From Diplonema papillatum (Eukaryota; Euglenozoa; Diplonemea; Diplonemida; Diplonemidae), in the NCBI GenBank assembly GCA_030068145.1, contig JAPJBO010000106.1, positions 310,001 to 374,000 on the forward strand: a DNA stretch of 64,000 bases, given 5' to 3'. Under the pieces are notes generated by a model. It worked only from the letters and a program-made list of their open reading frames with translations, searched no databases and was not told where the DNA came from. A program made the position numbers and the translations under genes. This document shows, piece by piece, positions 15,001 through 21,015 of this stretch (its first letter is position 1; each line of letters starts with the position of its first letter).

Positions 15001-18000
15001 AGCGGCGCGCGCCGTCCCCACCGGGGACACCTACCAGCCGTGGCCGGAGAAGGCGGACGACGAAGTCGCCCCCGAAGCGCGCCCCCCCGCCAGCAGGCAG
15101 GAAGCGACCCGCGCCTTGCACCCCCACGACCTCTCCCGCAGCCGCGCTGCGCGCACGACGACGACGCGCCGATCTCGGCGACGACGGCACTGGCCTCGCC
15201 GGCCCGAACACACCGCGCCCACCCGGCCCCGCCCGGCCCTCTTCGATGGCAGGCCCTGACTCGGGCTCTTTTTCTGATTCTGGTTCCGACCCTCCACGGG
15301 TCTCACAACGATCGCGCCCTCCCGCCGGCTCTTCCCGGCTACTCACGTCCTCCGCATCGCGGCGTGCCTATCGGCGCAAACGAGAAAGCGAAGACTCCGA
15401 TTCCTTTTCGGATTATGAGATCGTGAGCAACTGCCAACAACAGTTGCAACCGGCTAGAGTTGCGCCGCGCCGAAAGCGCGGAAAAAGTGACCCTTCTGGA
15501 GTCACGTAGCGAAAAGCTGGCATAGTGTGGTACTCATTTGCTTGCAAATGACTCCCCACTAACACAACAAGACGACGAAAAGTTGTCACAGGACAAGTTG
15601 TGACAGGATCCTGTGCTCGCTTTTCGACACGTGCGAGAGGCTCCCCCGCGTACACGCCCGCATGCTGAACATCGCCCGGCTTTACAGCCGGCACGGTGTG
15701 TTGTTGCCGAAGGCGCGCCTGGGACCTGTCGGGATCGCCATCTCTGACGGTTTCACGGTCGCGGGCATCGATTTCGAAGGCCACGACTTTGCGACCGCGG
15801 CGCTCGAGGGCCGCCGGCTTCTCGACATGGAGAGGGGCGAGAGGCACCACGCCATCCGGGCACGGCTACGGCAGACGACCTGGACGCAGCTTGCGAGGCA
15901 ACGGCCGTCTTACGACGGCGTGCAGGCAGGGGTGGACTGCAGGCGTACGAACGAGCTGCGCCTAGCGACGGCTGACGCTGGCGAGAAACGTGCGCTGGCG
16001 GTGATTCTGTCCGGGGGTGTGTTCCTCGCTGCGCGGTGGGGACGGAATGCGCGTGCGAACGGAGGGGCGGCCGGGACAGACGGGTCGCCGAGCTCCTCGG
16101 CGTCCGTGTCGTCGACCGCCTCTGATACGACCGGCAGCTTTGACGAGCACGTCTCCGAATCCTCCTCTTCGGAACCTCAGCGTCCGCCGCTGGACCGCGG
16201 CTGCAGGGACTGCGACCTGGGCGTCCAGGACACAGCGGATCACCTGTGGTGGGAGTGCCCCGCCTACGACGAGATTCGCGGCCGTCCTTGCTTCGCCGAA
16301 CTCCTGCGGGCGGACCGGGCGAGGTGGCCGTCTTGCACGCGTGTGCATGGGGTTATTGTCGAAGGAATGCGGGTGGAGGTCGCGGCCCTTCACCGCCTCA
16401 TGGCGGCGGTGTACACTGCACGCGTGGAGGCGGAGCGACGCCGCCTCTCCGCAGTGCAACCGATGCACCCCTGGCACGCAGCTGCGCCGCTGCCGGCGGT
16501 GCAACACCTGTTCGACTTCGACCGCCTTCCGGATGAGCCGCCGAGATGGCCGTACGGCGGCCGTGCGATGCGGGCGCTCAAGGGCTGGCTGTCGGCACTG
16601 AGGTGGACCAACGCAGGCGAGGTGTCGTGCGTTGAGCTGGCAGTGGACTTCGAGGTCCACACCGGGGTCGACGTCCCTGCCCCCCCGGGAATACGAAGGC
16701 TCGCCGCCAACCAGAGGGGGAAGACCCTCTGGACGATGCTGTCGACATTGTGCCGCCTGTGCCAGGACCTGCAGCTGCCGTCGCCGTTGCCTGCCGAGCG
16801 GAAGGTCCGGGTGGGCTCGATGAGGACCCTGGGGGCGCCGATGCTGTGGGGGGGATTGACACCTCGCCCACGCTTCGCCGGGGGCGAGGAGACGCACGGG
16901 GTGCTGGGGACGAGCTTTCCGCGGGCAGCTGCCGGGGACGGGAAGAACTGGGGCGGGGACGTGTTCCCGCAGTACGACGCGGCGCGGCGGGCACAGCGTT
17001 CGCTGCGCTGGGACGTGCCCACCCCTCTGCCGCAACGCCCGCGCCTTCCCGTGCTTGTACCGGCTGCGCAGGCGGACCCTCTGCTCCGCACGCAGTCGGT
17101 CTGCGATGCCTGCGCGAAGCAGAAGTGCGCGGTGTGCACTGGCATGCGAAGAAACTACAGCCTTGTAGTTGACCAGTGCTGCCAGGTGCACCACCGCCCT
17201 GACGACGGCCTGCGCATTCAGTGCTGCCGGGCGCATCGGCTGACGCGATGCGGGACCTGCCCGAACGCCGACGCGTGCTGCGGACGGGGGCATCACAGGG
17301 GTGGTGCTGGCCGCGACGGCAGCAGTGGCGACGGGGGTGGCGGTGGTCATGGCGGCCGCGGCCGCGGCGGCGGCGAGGCGGCGGAGACGACAGTGACGGC
17401 ACTGGTCGCGGCCGCGCACGCGGCGGCGGTCGCGGCAGCGGACGCGGCGGGGATCGCGGCGGCGGCGGCGGTGGCGGTCGCAGCCTAGGCGAGAGCGACG
17501 GCCTCACAGGCCGGAAGCGGCGCGCGCCGTCCCCACCTGGAACACCTACCAGCCGTGGCCGGAGGAGGCGGACGACGAAGTCGCCCCCGAAGCGCGCCCC
17601 CCCGCCAGCAGGCAGGAAGCGACCCGCGCCATGCACCCCCACGGCCTCTCCCGCAGCCGCGCTGCGCGCACGACGACGACGACGCGCCGATCTCGGCGAC
17701 GACGGCACTGGCCTCGCCGGCCCGAACACACCGCGCCCACCCGGCCCCGCCCGGCCCTCTTCGATGGCAGGCCCTGACTCGGGCCCTTTTACTGATTCTG
17801 GTTCCGACCCTCCACGGGTCACACAACGATCGCGCCCTCCCGCCGGCTCTTCCCGGCTACTCGCGTCCTCCGCATCGCGGCGCGCCTATCGGCGCAAGCG
17901 AGAAAGCGAAGACTCCGATTCCTTTTCGGATTATGAAATCGTCAGTAGTTTCCAACAACAGTTGCAGCCGACTAGAGTTGCGCCGCGCCGAAAGCGCGGA

Positions 18001-21000
18001 AAAAGTGACCCTTCTGGAGTCACGTAGCGAAAAGCTGGCATAGTGTGGTACTCATTTGCTTGCAAATGACTCCCCACTAACGCAACAAGACGACGAAAAG
18101 TTGTGCAAAGTTGTGAAATGATTTGGAATTCTGTGATTTTTTCTGCTAGAACATAGATGGCCGTTATATAACGTTATATAACGTTATATAACGTTATTCC
18201 CGGAGTTATTTGTTACCCCCCCCCTAAATCCAGAAAAACCGTTATTGACCGTTATAAAACCGTTATTTGCCATTTTTGGTCGAAAAATAACGTTATTTGA
18301 CCGTTAAAACGTTATAAAACGTTATATAACGTTATAATAACGGTATAATAACGTTATATAACGTTATAATAACGTTATATAACGTTATAATAACGTTATA
18401 TAACGTTATATAACGTTATATAACGGTTTTTTACCAATCCATGGGAGGTCACACTGTCCTCCAGATTTTGGTCATTTTTGGCCATTTTTGCCACATTTTC
18501 CAGATTTTGGCCAATTTTGGTTATTTTTGCCAATTTTTCCAGATTTTGGTCAATGTTGACCAGTTTTGCCGTGTTTTCCAGATTTTGGCCCATTTTGGCC
18601 GTTTTTACCGATTTGGCCAGGATTGGCCATTTTTGCCATGTTTTTCAAAAATTTGGCTATTTTTGCCGATTTTTCCAGGTTTTGGTCATTTTTGGCCAGT
18701 TTTGCCATGTTTTCCAGACTTTGCCCATTTTGGCCGTTTTTGCCGATTTTTCCAGGGTTTTGGTCATTTATGCCCTGCCCCTCACCAGAGCTATTCTTGT
18801 CTGAGTTTCTTAAACCCGCACAAGCTCGAACAGGCAGTCCGTGCGCGGAAAAAAAAAAAGGTCGAAAGACACCAATCTGTACACCCATTCGGGATCGTCG
18901 GAAACACAAAAACACGTGTACCGCCCCACCCGCTTCGATTTCAGCCACACTAGTCTTTCCAAAGGGAATATCGACTATGCCTGCGAAAAGCTCCCCGAAG
19001 GTCCAGCCGAAGCCGAAGGTTCAACCTAAAGCTCAGCCGAAAGCTCAGCCGAAGACCCCAGGTACACAGCGCAAACGGCCTCGCGCCGAAAGTACGGATA
19101 GCAACAGCAGCAGCAGCAGCGCCTCGGTTGCAAAGGCGCGACGCGGAAGGAAGAAGGTGGCGGAAACGCTGCGCGTCGAGGCCTTGTCCCGCGACCTGGC
19201 ATTGACTGGCCCCAGCGTTCTCCCTGTCACGAAACCACCAAGTAAGAGCCCGGAACAACGATTCATCGACCGGATCAAGAAAACCGACCCCGGGCTGGCT
19301 GGGTTCTACGGGAAGCGCCAGCTGTGACTGCTCGACTTTGCATGTCTCGTGCTCATCATGCCCATATTTGGTACTGGGACATTGTCTGACTGGCGTAGTA
19401 CGCAACGGTCTGCCGAGTGGACAAGCTTGGACAAGTTGGACTCCAGTGGCGGATCGTGCTCGTGACACACGCTACCGAACACTGTGCGGTTGCCACGACC
19501 GTTACGGGCCACCGACTGGGACGCGCGCCGGAAACCCAAAACTGCAGACATCCACGTCCCAAGAACAACACCGCACAGTGAAAGAGTCATGTGAATCCGG
19601 AAGGATCGCGTTTGTCGCGCTTGGGTGGAAGTCCGCAAGGAAATATGCAAGAGAAAAAGCTCTGGGGAGGGGCTATACAGACCCCTGAGGACCGGTTAAT
19701 ACGAATTATTTTCGGACCAGGTTTTGTTTCCGAACAGTTTCTGTGACCGGGATCCAAAAATCGACAAGAGTCTGGAAATATTGGCAAAAATGGCCAAAAT
19801 CTGGAAATAATGGCAAAAATGGCCGAAATTGACCAAAAACTGGAAAAATCGGAAAATCGGAAAATTTGAAAAATCGGAAAAAATGGCCGAAATTGACTGA
19901 TCTGGATAAATCGGCCAGAGTGGCCAAAATCTCAAAATTGTCCAAAATCTTGAAAAATCGCCAAAAATGGCCGAAATCTGGAAAAATCGGCAAAGATTGC
20001 CGAAATCTGGAAAAATCGGCAAAATGGCCAAAACCTGAAAAAATCGGCAAAATCGGAAAAAATTGGCTAAGATTGACCAAAATCTGGCAAAAATGGCCAA
20101 AATCGGAAAAAATGGCCGAAATGGACCAAAATGAGGAAAAAATGACAAAAATCTGGAAATATGGCCAAAATCGGAAAAATTCCAAAAACCGTTATTTGCG
20201 TTATTTTTTCCGTTATTTTGCGTTTTCGACCGTTATATAACGTTATATAACGTTATATAACGTTATCACCGTTATAACGTTATATAACGTTATATAACGT
20301 TATCAACCGGCCATCTATGCTAGAAAATAGGTGGATCGCCCCAGGGTCGTTGGACGCACAGTGCGCCCAGGCGACGTCGATTTGCTGACACATACCAGGC
20401 ATCATGCATACAGAGCTGCTTGAGGCAAGGCCCAGCCGTATTCGTGCGCTGGACTGGTTAAACTTCGTTGAAGGGGCTCAAATCATACAGATTGTCAATC
20501 GTCTAAACAAAAACTTGTCGAAGCGGCGGGCATACACGGTGCCCAGGCGTGATGCGAAGCAAGAAACCCGCAAACTTACGACTGCTGAGATGGAGGAGGC
20601 CGCAGATAGGCTGTATTACCGCCCCCTGCAGCATCAGAAGAAACGTGAGGAGGTCGCTCGTCACAATGCGCAGCCCGAAACTAAAAAGCTAACCGACGAT
20701 GAGCAGCAAGCTGCTATCGAGCGGCTTTACTACAAGGCCAAGGAAGAAGCTGACATCACCAACCACCTCGCGCAAGAGAAACAAGAGCACGAATTCGCGT
20801 CGCAGTCCATGCACGACGGCAAAGTTACTATCCAGCAGCAGCTTGACATGAATGAACGGCTTTACTACAACGCAGTTAATCAGCAGTACCACAGGACACT
20901 CAGCGACGAAACTCGCAAACCGAAGGCAACGTTGTCTCAGCAGGATTGGAAGAATACTATCGATCGACTGTACAAGCCCCAGCCTGTGGTGAAAAGTGTT

Positions 21001-21015
21001 TTCGAAACTGAGTAG
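2..21015 (+). CDS. Giant C2-Kelch-RLY protein, 5' end outside window
   Basis: Model: join 2-379, 647-5630, 6925-7727, 7843-8720, 10133-10374, 20399-21015. Every junction keeps phase, giving about 2,633 residues with the start upstream of the window. C2-like beta-sandwich segments lie at about 270-840 (split by intron 1), 2047-2400, 2757-3030, 3514-3800, 3916-4440 and 5550-7100. The sixth is reassembled across intron 2: its first strands are at 5550-5630 and the rest (DASWCDCFVL, GNFLGEAAV) follows 6925. Kelch blades with a GG signature lie near 7440, 7600, 8015, 8215, 8600 and 10,285. The last exon has four spaced RLY motifs (near 20,608, 20,722, 20,860 and 20,967). C2 domains usually bind membrane lipid or Ca2+ and Kelch propellers bind proteins, so a membrane-linked scaffold is inferred. 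Long Pro/Ser-rich linkers separate the domains. Less certain are the GC donor of intron 2, the acceptor at 7842 and the last splice across 10 kb. Confidence 0.72.
380..646 (+). other. Intron 1 of the C2-Kelch gene
   Basis: The donor GTATGC is at 380 and the acceptor AACAG ends at 646. Both flanking exons end or start in phase 0. Splicing restores a continuous C2 strand (VVMR joined to VWFGEQ) and removes the stop at 422-424. Confidence 0.8.
5631..6924 (+). other. Intron 2 of the C2-Kelch gene, apparent GC-AG intron
   Basis: The exon frame hits a stop at 5651. A GC donor at CAG|GCATGC (5631) and an acceptor CAACAG ending at 6924 give matching phase 1 and rebuild one C2 domain. GCATGC differs by one base from the GTATGC donor common in this window. 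Between 6077 and 6171 is a short imperfect inverted repeat (AAAAATGTTG...CCAACATTTTT) with C7/G7 tracts. A hAT-like MITE follows at 6219-6506. No other feature is visible. Confidence 0.6.
6219..6506. mobile_element. hAT-like MITE, 288 bp
   Basis: The terminal inverted repeat CAGGGCTTACGCTCC starts at 6219 and its reverse complement ends at 6506. The flanks are a perfect 8-bp target duplication, TCCCCAAT, at 6211-6218 and 6507-6514. CAGGG termini and 8-bp duplications are typical of hAT transposons. The interior has palindromic ACGTGTGG motifs and no coding potential, so it is non-autonomous. Confidence 0.88.
8721..10132 (+). other. Intron 4 of the C2-Kelch gene
   Basis: The donor GTATGT is at 8721 and the acceptor AACACAG ends at 10,132. 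The split codon CG|A restores the Kelch junction PVSR-LGHTVALL. The 1.4-kb interior shows no transposon ends, RNA gene or convincing ORF. Confidence 0.75.
10424..10982. mobile_element. Tc1/mariner-like MITE, 559 bp
   Basis: The terminal inverted repeat begins CTGGGGGGGG and, after the G run, continues TCGAATACA. The matching end is TGTATTCGACCCCCCCCAG. Both ends are flanked by TA (10,422-10,423 and 10,983-10,984), the Tc1/mariner target. Inside, about 42 bp starting TGGTCCCCGGGTC occur twice (near 10,600 and 10,800). There is no transposase ORF. Confidence 0.75.
11629..12294 (-). mobile_element. Non-LTR copy 0, inverted, 5'-truncated
   Basis: This is the reverse complement of the 3' ends of the copies ending at 13,925, about 15,586 and 18,105. 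It covers the Arg/Gly/Pro-rich C-terminal coding part and the 3' UTR ending GACGAAAAGTTGTG (read on the minus strand). Its truncated 5' end falls at about 12,294 inside the Gly-rich region, next to GTTGTG. It retains no RT or endonuclease region. Confidence 0.8.
12301..13925 (+). mobile_element. Non-LTR copy 1, internally deleted, with 2A-like motif
   Basis: The 5' part (12,302-12,487) ends an ORF in a Cys-rich zinc motif: CGDC-x16-CEEC-x5-C-x2-C, then TGA. An ATG at 12,542 then gives a peptide with GDVHPNPGP at 12,551-12,577, close to the DxExNPGP 2A consensus found near the start of ORFs in many non-LTR elements. At about 12,640 the sequence jumps to the C-terminal region shared with copies 2 and 3, so the endonuclease and RT are deleted. 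The remaining ORF (to 13,847) has a Cys/His-rich domain, an RGG-rich stretch and a basic end, SDPSGVT. The copy ends in AAAAGTTGTG. Confidence 0.75.
13926..15586 (+). mobile_element. Non-LTR copy 2, 5'-truncated
   Basis: It starts at CGGAGCGACG, the position equal to 16,431 in copy 3, directly after the 3' end of copy 1. It encodes only the C-terminal part of the polyprotein. Relative to copy 3 (about 16,675) a roughly 10-base gap near 14,157 shifts the frame. From 14,208 the frame is open to 15,509: Cys-rich domain, RGG stretch, basic C-terminus ending SDPSGVT. The 3' UTR matches copies 1 and 3. Confidence 0.8.
15587..18105 (+). mobile_element. Non-LTR copy 3, longest, carries the RT C-terminal region
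   Basis: The open frame at 15,662-17,488 contains a zinc motif, CRDC-x8-DHLWWECP (near 16,200-16,260), like the CCHC or CCHH tail that follows RT in many non-LTR elements. A segment after it (GWLSALRW, CVELAVDFEVHTGV) resembles my memory of C-termini of dinoflagellate-type retrotransposons. The Cys-rich domain (HACAKQKCA-type) and an RGG region follow. A length difference near 17,370 shifts the frame, and the C-terminus continues in another frame to 18,027. The catalytic RT and endonuclease are absent (5' truncation). It ends AAAAGTTGTG. Confidence 0.78.
18161..18426. repeat. TTATATAACG array, left arm of foldback element
   Basis: Near-perfect units of TTATATAACG, with variants ATAATAACG and ATAAAACG, are broken once by a non-repeat patch near 18,196-18,300. 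The unit is itself palindromic (CGTTATATAACG). Confidence 0.85.
18977..19327 (+). CDS. Small Lys/Pro-rich basic protein in the foldback element
   Basis: This is a 116-residue ORF from the ATG at 18,977. The N-terminus is a PKVQPKPK-type repeat followed by a basic patch (RKRPR), a Ser run and a second basic patch (ARRGRKK). The C-terminal half is more ordinary and ends GFYGKRQL. It has no transposase or nuclease motif. It is the only reasonable ORF between the two repeat arms. A DNA-binding or architectural role is inferred from charge alone. About 55 bp of its 5' flank (from 18,857) resemble the 5' flank of the gene at 25,342. Confidence 0.5.
   Translation: MPAKSSPKVQPKPKVQPKAQPKAQPKTPGTQRKRPRAESTDSNSSSSSASVAKARRGRKKVAETLRVEALSRDLALTGPSVLPVTKPPSKSPEQRFIDRIKKTDPGLAGFYGKRQL
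20226..20305. repeat. TTATATAACG array, right arm of foldback element
   Basis: This array of the same unit as at 18,161-18,426 is shorter. It lies just inside the right terminus GGCCATCTATG. The A-rich GGCCAAAA/GGAAAAAT array at 19,766-20,190 sits on its inner side and is the inverted match of the T-rich array at 18,462-18,775. Confidence 0.85.

Follow-up and report, generated by a model that had tools for sequence, protein, structure and literature searches.

Here we show that an element at positions 18152-20319 of a 64-kb stretch of Diplonema papillatum DNA is a non-autonomous internal-deletion derivative, collinear with a longer coding element around one deletion. On the evidence of sequence comparison, we are highly confident that it is a non-autonomous cut-and-paste DNA transposon of the hAT superfamily, derived by internal deletion. 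Its family belongs to hAT by virtue of its transposase domain, but departs from both the 8-bp target-duplication rule and the D-D-E catalytic triad. Such a family, recently active and with an unusual residue at its active site, would test how far the hAT mechanism varies and might serve as a genetic tool in a group of marine protists.

The genome searched was an assembly of 271,365,524 bases in 2,910 contigs, in which the whole 64-kb stretch, hereafter the window, corresponds to G000:C106:310001-374000. Both element boundaries lie where the original prediction had placed them, and its coordinates for the ends, the duplication and the open reading frame (ORF) were confirmed, as was its description of a mobile inverted-repeat element with layered arrays. 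Short terminal inverted repeats are present, in the form of an 11-bp perfect repeat with arrays inward of each copy. The features of the window copy are as follows:

18146..18151 (no strand): left copy of the target-site duplication, CTAGAA
18152..18162 (+): left terminal inverted repeat CATAGATGGCC, 11 bp
18162..18197 (no strand): outer array on the left, with three CGTTATATAACG palindromes spaced 10 bp apart
18286..18425: second left palindrome array, with steps of 10, 21 and 32 bp in the window copy
18455..18775: inner left array of T-tracts, 9.70-bp period by spectral test
18780..19690 (+): unique core, in which the transposase leader and 5' coding sequence are joined to 3' noncoding sequence of the element
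18977..19327 (+): 116-codon ORF, 111 N-terminal residues of the hAT transposase plus GKRQL
19307..19309: deletion junction at a shared TAC, from alignment against full-length relative L062
19310..19360 (about): interval of the switch from short-family to full-length-family sequence, from alignments read by eye
19750..20185: inner right array of A-tracts with a period of 9.75 bp, an imperfect inverted counterpart to the T array on the left
20231..20299: right outer array, five CGTTATATAACG palindromes at steps of 10, 10, 27 and 10 bp
20309..20319 (-): right terminal inverted repeat GGCCATCTATG
20320..20325: right copy of the target-site duplication, CTAGAA

The building block of the outer arrays, CGTTATATAACG, is a perfect 12-bp palindrome that occurs 14 times in the 64-kb window, each time within the element (14/14), and 0 times in 100 shuffles. 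In the window copy these palindromes form runs of two or three at 10 bp, the other steps being 21, 32, 27 and 138 bp. Repetition of the outer arrays is judged from this palindrome count because the spectral test is weak there: the base-composition periodicity of the left outer array is slight (10.20 bp, power 11.2 vs a shuffle maximum of 10.1), and the right outer array shows no periodicity above chance (9.35 bp, power 5.6 vs 6.9). Inner arrays, by the same control of 100 dinucleotide shuffles each, are strongly periodic, with a period of 9.70 bp and spectral power of 86.6 for the left T array (shuffle maximum 19.7) and a period of 9.75 bp and power of 47.6 for the right A array (shuffle maximum 17.3). 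The two are imperfect inverted partners (70-83% over listed pairs of 83-132 nt). Periods read without a shuffle control in the full-length relatives L062 and L063 are 9.65 bp for the left array, and 9.4 and 9.55 bp, respectively, for the right array. Among the nine copies compared, palindromes near both ends are common to all; the three-palindrome left outer array is also found in 8 other copies, with two palindromes in the 447-bp one. The second left palindrome array differs in length among copies and is missing from some short ones. One 667-bp copy (L035) has no left T array, yet carries a 6-bp duplication, so this array is dispensable in some mobile forms.

Exact left ends matching CATAGATGGCCGTTATATAACG number 247 in the genome and exact right ends 279, each with 0 matches for the reversed control. 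In the core search, among the best 40 of 946 candidates scored, the other 39 are 96% identical to the window copy over 918-bp matches of equal score; the genome search with core and terminus that the original prediction proposed thus uncovers many copies of a large family. When ends were paired by distance and strand only, 66 of 84 left ends had a right end within 12 kb, and the 66 end-to-end lengths comprise 32 at 1.9-2.3 kb, 14 at 200-1,100 bp, one of 99 bp, and 19 others, a length ladder with identical ends from 99 bp upward. Among the longest pairs, some probably contain nested insertions or span two separate elements. Amplification is recent, since six copies, all 2,140 bp long, show 1-5 base differences in each pairwise comparison (mean 0.13%). 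A second short family (L026, L035 and L036, of 447, 667 and 798 bp) has the same ends and a different core, with neither the left T array nor the 116-aa ORF.

At the lower limit of the length ladder, two 99-bp elements (L020, at G000:C15:406164-406262, and G000:C61:15547-15645) contain little beyond two ends; in the latter, both are of the right type and face outward. The copy on C15 has no clear duplication, and may therefore have shrunk by deletion where it stood instead of having moved there. At another locus (L006/L043, G000:C781), the left end of the element is preceded, 407 bp upstream, by another left end, perhaps that of a tandem or nested partial copy.

Target-site duplications were read in 28 distinct insertions legible at both ends, which were taken from the best core matches and first-listed ends and are not a random sample. 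An exact, unambiguous duplication of 6 bp is present in 21 of them; duplications of 5, 7, 8 and 3 bp occur once each, two insertions have none, and one, sitting in an AT run, is ambiguous between 6 and 8 bp. The clean 6-bp duplication claimed for the window copy (CTAGAA on both flanks) is therefore seen again across the family, and the duplication length is shared among copies, as the original prediction had asked.

At four places (L061-L064), an 832-aa open frame lies in line with the 116-aa ORF, and the 793-aa protein encoded is identical in all four. These full-length relatives have the left end in 4/4 cases, and both ends were read in two, at about 5.2 kb: L062 spans 5,203 bp and is flanked by the 6-bp duplication AAATGA, while L063 spans 5,194 bp, with one changed base in its left tip and no exact duplication. 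The right end was not found in the stretches read of L061 and L064. In L061 (G000:C203) the right array is interrupted, and the distance of 7,176 bp between its left end and a right-type end makes a nested insertion of about 2 kb likely.

The 793-aa protein matches the Pfam domain Dimer_Tnp_hAT (PF05699) with an E-value of 7.1e-10 and 39 bits, against a cut-off of 21.4, and the same domain is matched in 3/3 of the hAT families aligned. Searched against the PDB, a three-family profile returned only Hermes chains at E<=1 (4 sequences, best 2.3e-8); the single protein gave an E-value of 0.077 against Hermes. The significant match is restricted to the C-terminal region of the transposase. The CC..H..H spacing of a putative N-terminal BED-type zinc finger (CCHH or CCHC) is visible by eye, and the Pfam zf-BED match is weak (E 0.13, in 1/3 families). 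Four loci encoding a hAT transposase thus supply the larger relative that the original prediction suggested seeking. Its statement that the element lacks a transposase holds for the window copy, which has none because it is an internal-deletion derivative, and fails for the family, whose longer relatives encode one.

Relative to L062, the window element lacks 3,119 bp, the flanking sequences being joined at a TAC that is present at both breakpoints. The junction sequence has 148 exact copies in the genome (control 0), indicating that a single deletion product was amplified. A captured host fragment as the origin of the core is rejected, as the core consists of transposase 5' coding sequence and the element's own 3' noncoding sequence; the original prediction had allowed for such a fragment with no other copies, and many other copies of the core exist.

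The 116-aa ORF comprises transposase residues 1-111, a stretch that ends short of the putative zinc finger, followed by GKRQL, five accidental residues contributed by downstream 3' noncoding DNA. It contains none of the zinc finger, catalytic and dimerisation parts, and is most likely a leftover without a job. We consider it very improbable that the element is instead a distinct type whose short basic protein is functional and kept by selection, for example as an end-binding adaptor or a transposition repressor. Truncated transposases do act as repressors in some other transposons, and among the 150 ORF matches listed of 235 candidates none has a stop inside the match and 53 are identical over 116 aa. 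The absence of stops says little, however, because the copies are too young: there are 4 ORF haplotypes among the 53 locus rows (some copies being present twice), and 3 amino-acid substitutions, 2 silent ones and whole-codon repeat changes separate a short-family haplotype (L027) from the full-length one (hand count), differences compatible with no selection. A functional protein is also at odds with an ORF that ends before the zinc finger and dimerisation domain and draws its last five residues from noncoding DNA, and with the second short family, in which L035 and L036 have no such ORF and yet show exact 6- and 7-bp duplications, although L026, likewise without it, has a duplication of only 3 bp. 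Foldback ends are inverted and built of short tandem repeats, as are those of the window element, and a MULE or classical Foldback with long repetitive inverted ends and a Mutator-type transposase would account for this likeness. The family transposase, however, passes the hAT cut-off, and its profile aligns only with Hermes in the PDB. MULE target duplications are 8-11 bp, whereas those found here are mostly 6 bp (21/28), with 8 bp in one insertion and possibly a second. In favour of a MULE are a weak, sub-threshold Transposase_mut match (E 0.16, 11.2 bits vs a cut-off of 21) and the MULE-like ORFs reported in D. papillatum (PMC10161547), but the hAT domain, the profile match to Hermes and the 6-bp duplications largely refute this assignment, to which we attach a very low probability.

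Both parts of the window copy were typed in a set of 39 copies (35 short, the window copy among them, and 4 full-length), with duplicate loci and copies without the junction excluded. The window copy is of the short type at 61/61 informative 5' columns, which include gap columns and the junction itself, and of the full-length type at 44/44 columns on the 3' side. Against L061, its bases 1-1159 show 25 mismatches plus gaps, and its 3' part is identical at 652/652 positions. None of the 34 other short copies has a full-length 3' part, 11 being unreadable at the last few columns; in 5 of those 11, between one and five columns of the 5' part are also of the full-length type. From these alignments the window copy looks like a recombinant of a short-family 5' part and a full-length-family 3' part, the latter probably replaced from a full-length copy, with gene conversion or repair from a full-length template as the likely cause. 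An artefact of assembly or polishing is a less likely explanation, though one to be taken seriously. The switch is a clean one, mixed columns being absent to either side of it, and typical long reads exceed the element in length; neither point is decisive against an artefact. In its favour, the mixed state occurs in only 1 of the 35 short copies examined, namely the window copy, and the assembly merged short-read and long-read contigs, according to the genome paper's account of it (PMC10161547). If real, the recombinant copy records sequence exchange between short and full-length copies.

With the 675-aa transposase part as query, 72 matches were obtained (104 candidates, 66 scored), further transposase matches falling at about nine places with 24-26% identity and 30 with 23%. 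Two more hAT families were inferred from these groups by one example each, and families 1, 2 and 3 were aligned through L061, L069 and L070, respectively; the group of 30 matches at the level of family 3. In 3/3 of these divergent families an Asp (Asp736 in the window element's family) occupies the position aligned with Hermes Glu572, numbered from the 612-residue chain 8edg_A, which we take to be the catalytic residue. The surrounding motifs are ATAADSVFS, ATECDSFFS and SVTRVDAVFS in families 1 to 3, vs SAASERTFS in Hermes. The first Asp (D279) is invariant in 3/3 families, while the second lines up in only 2/3. The D-D-E triad was accordingly not found in any of the three, Asp replacing the aligned Glu throughout. 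Because D-D-D is used by other transposase groups, filing the family as a hAT variant is based on the domain and not on the triad. The family 3 element (L072, L070 and L073; G000:C41:71500-77200) is 3,870 bp long with a 20-bp terminal repeat starting CATA, and lies between 6-bp copies of AATAAT inside a GTACAATAAT tandem array, an observation from one copy only. To judge from these few families, a 6-bp stagger, CATA ends and the Asp may be features of a diplonemid hAT group.

Assignment to hAT does not sustain the original claim of an undescribed element type at the superfamily level, since the family transposase is a hAT transposase. The accompanying caution that the ends might match a known family such as a MULE was apt in that the transposase points to a known group, which is hAT and not MULE. 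A new superfamily was likewise dropped, given the above-cut-off PF05699 match and the profile match to Hermes. What is unusual for hAT is the combination of 6-bp duplications, 10-bp-step palindrome runs, 9.7-bp A/T-tract arrays and Asp at the Glu572 position. The 8-bp duplication usual for hAT elements (PMC12730594) is not the rule here, with exactly 6 bp in 21/28 insertions, and the same source describes hAT groups with 5-, 6- and 7-bp duplications. Among these, the hAT6 group has 6-bp target duplications (Kapitonov and Jurka 2007, as cited in PMC12730594), and is reported in a lineage with Blackjack and other animal hATs (PMC12730594). We set the diplonemid family beside hAT6 by description, on the strength of superfamily and duplication length; it differs in having Asp aligned with the Hermes Glu and ends with palindrome arrays.

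Likeness to Hermes, a hAT element of Musca domestica, lies in the C-terminal region, which aligns ungapped, in a putative N-terminal zinc finger discerned by eye, and in multiple short subterminal sites, of which the first pair in Hermes forms a quasi-palindrome bound by two BED fingers (PMC10368747). Hermes differs in its 8-bp duplications, in sites that are scattered and not in tandem runs, and in having Glu572 in place of Asp736. Internal-deletion derivatives are familiar among hAT elements, Ac/Ds being an example. Another is hAT-NA5, described as a deletion derivative of hAT-5 (PMC6004678). Like such derivatives and MITEs, the window element combines the ends of an autonomous element with an internal deletion, and would be mobilised in trans; it differs in its two array layers and its 111-residue piece of transposase. 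Foldback elements share the inverted ends of short tandem repeats, and are set apart by the hAT transposase of the window family.

Mechanistically, alignment shows that an element of roughly 5.2 kb lost 3,119 internal bp at a 3-bp repeat, a deletion such as would be expected from interrupted gap repair after excision. Shared ends, a shared duplication length and near-identical copies suggest that the short element moves with transposase supplied in trans by full-length copies. The transposase would probably bind the CGTTATATAACG palindromes near the ends, which are putative finger sites, through its N-terminal CCHH finger, would probably cut at CATAG/CTATG, and would probably insert with a 6-bp stagger, in keeping with the observed 6-bp duplications. 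In Hermes, BED fingers bind subterminal repeats, with exact phasing of the first two thought crucial, and sites beyond the first 50 bp are not needed as finger sites, though the DNA is needed (PMC10368747); by analogy, not every distant palindrome would have to be occupied. The T- and A-tract arrays have a period close to the helical repeat; they probably curve the DNA beside the core and may help to bring the ends together, a role guessed from that period and the weakest step of the model. Taken further, and quite tentatively, a diplonemid hAT lineage might combine an all-aspartate site, a 6-bp stagger, CATA termini, many transposase fingers aligned on one DNA face along the 10-bp-step palindrome runs, and long, helically phased curved arrays that join the ends, in a transpososome unlike that of Hermes.

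A literature search returned no report of hAT for Euglenozoa, Diplonema or diplonemids (the last judged by title), nothing joining hAT with a 6-bp target-site duplication, and nothing on A-tracts, curved DNA and transposon ends. Among DNA-transposon ORFs, the D. papillatum genome paper includes TATE, MULE and Helitron, and the word hAT is absent from its main text (PMC10161547). Within the wider phylum, Merlin is reported in kinetoplastids (PMC8101967), and class II elements are said to be missing from trypanosomatids (PMC12278014).

Just downstream of the element, at 20404-21015, a 203-aa ORF contains RLYY-type motifs in repeated form and matches Tri-helical weakly (PF24465, E 0.015, under cut-off). 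Just upstream of the element, window positions 16578-18027 are very G+C-rich, with GGC-type tandem repeats and long overlapping ORFs on both strands.
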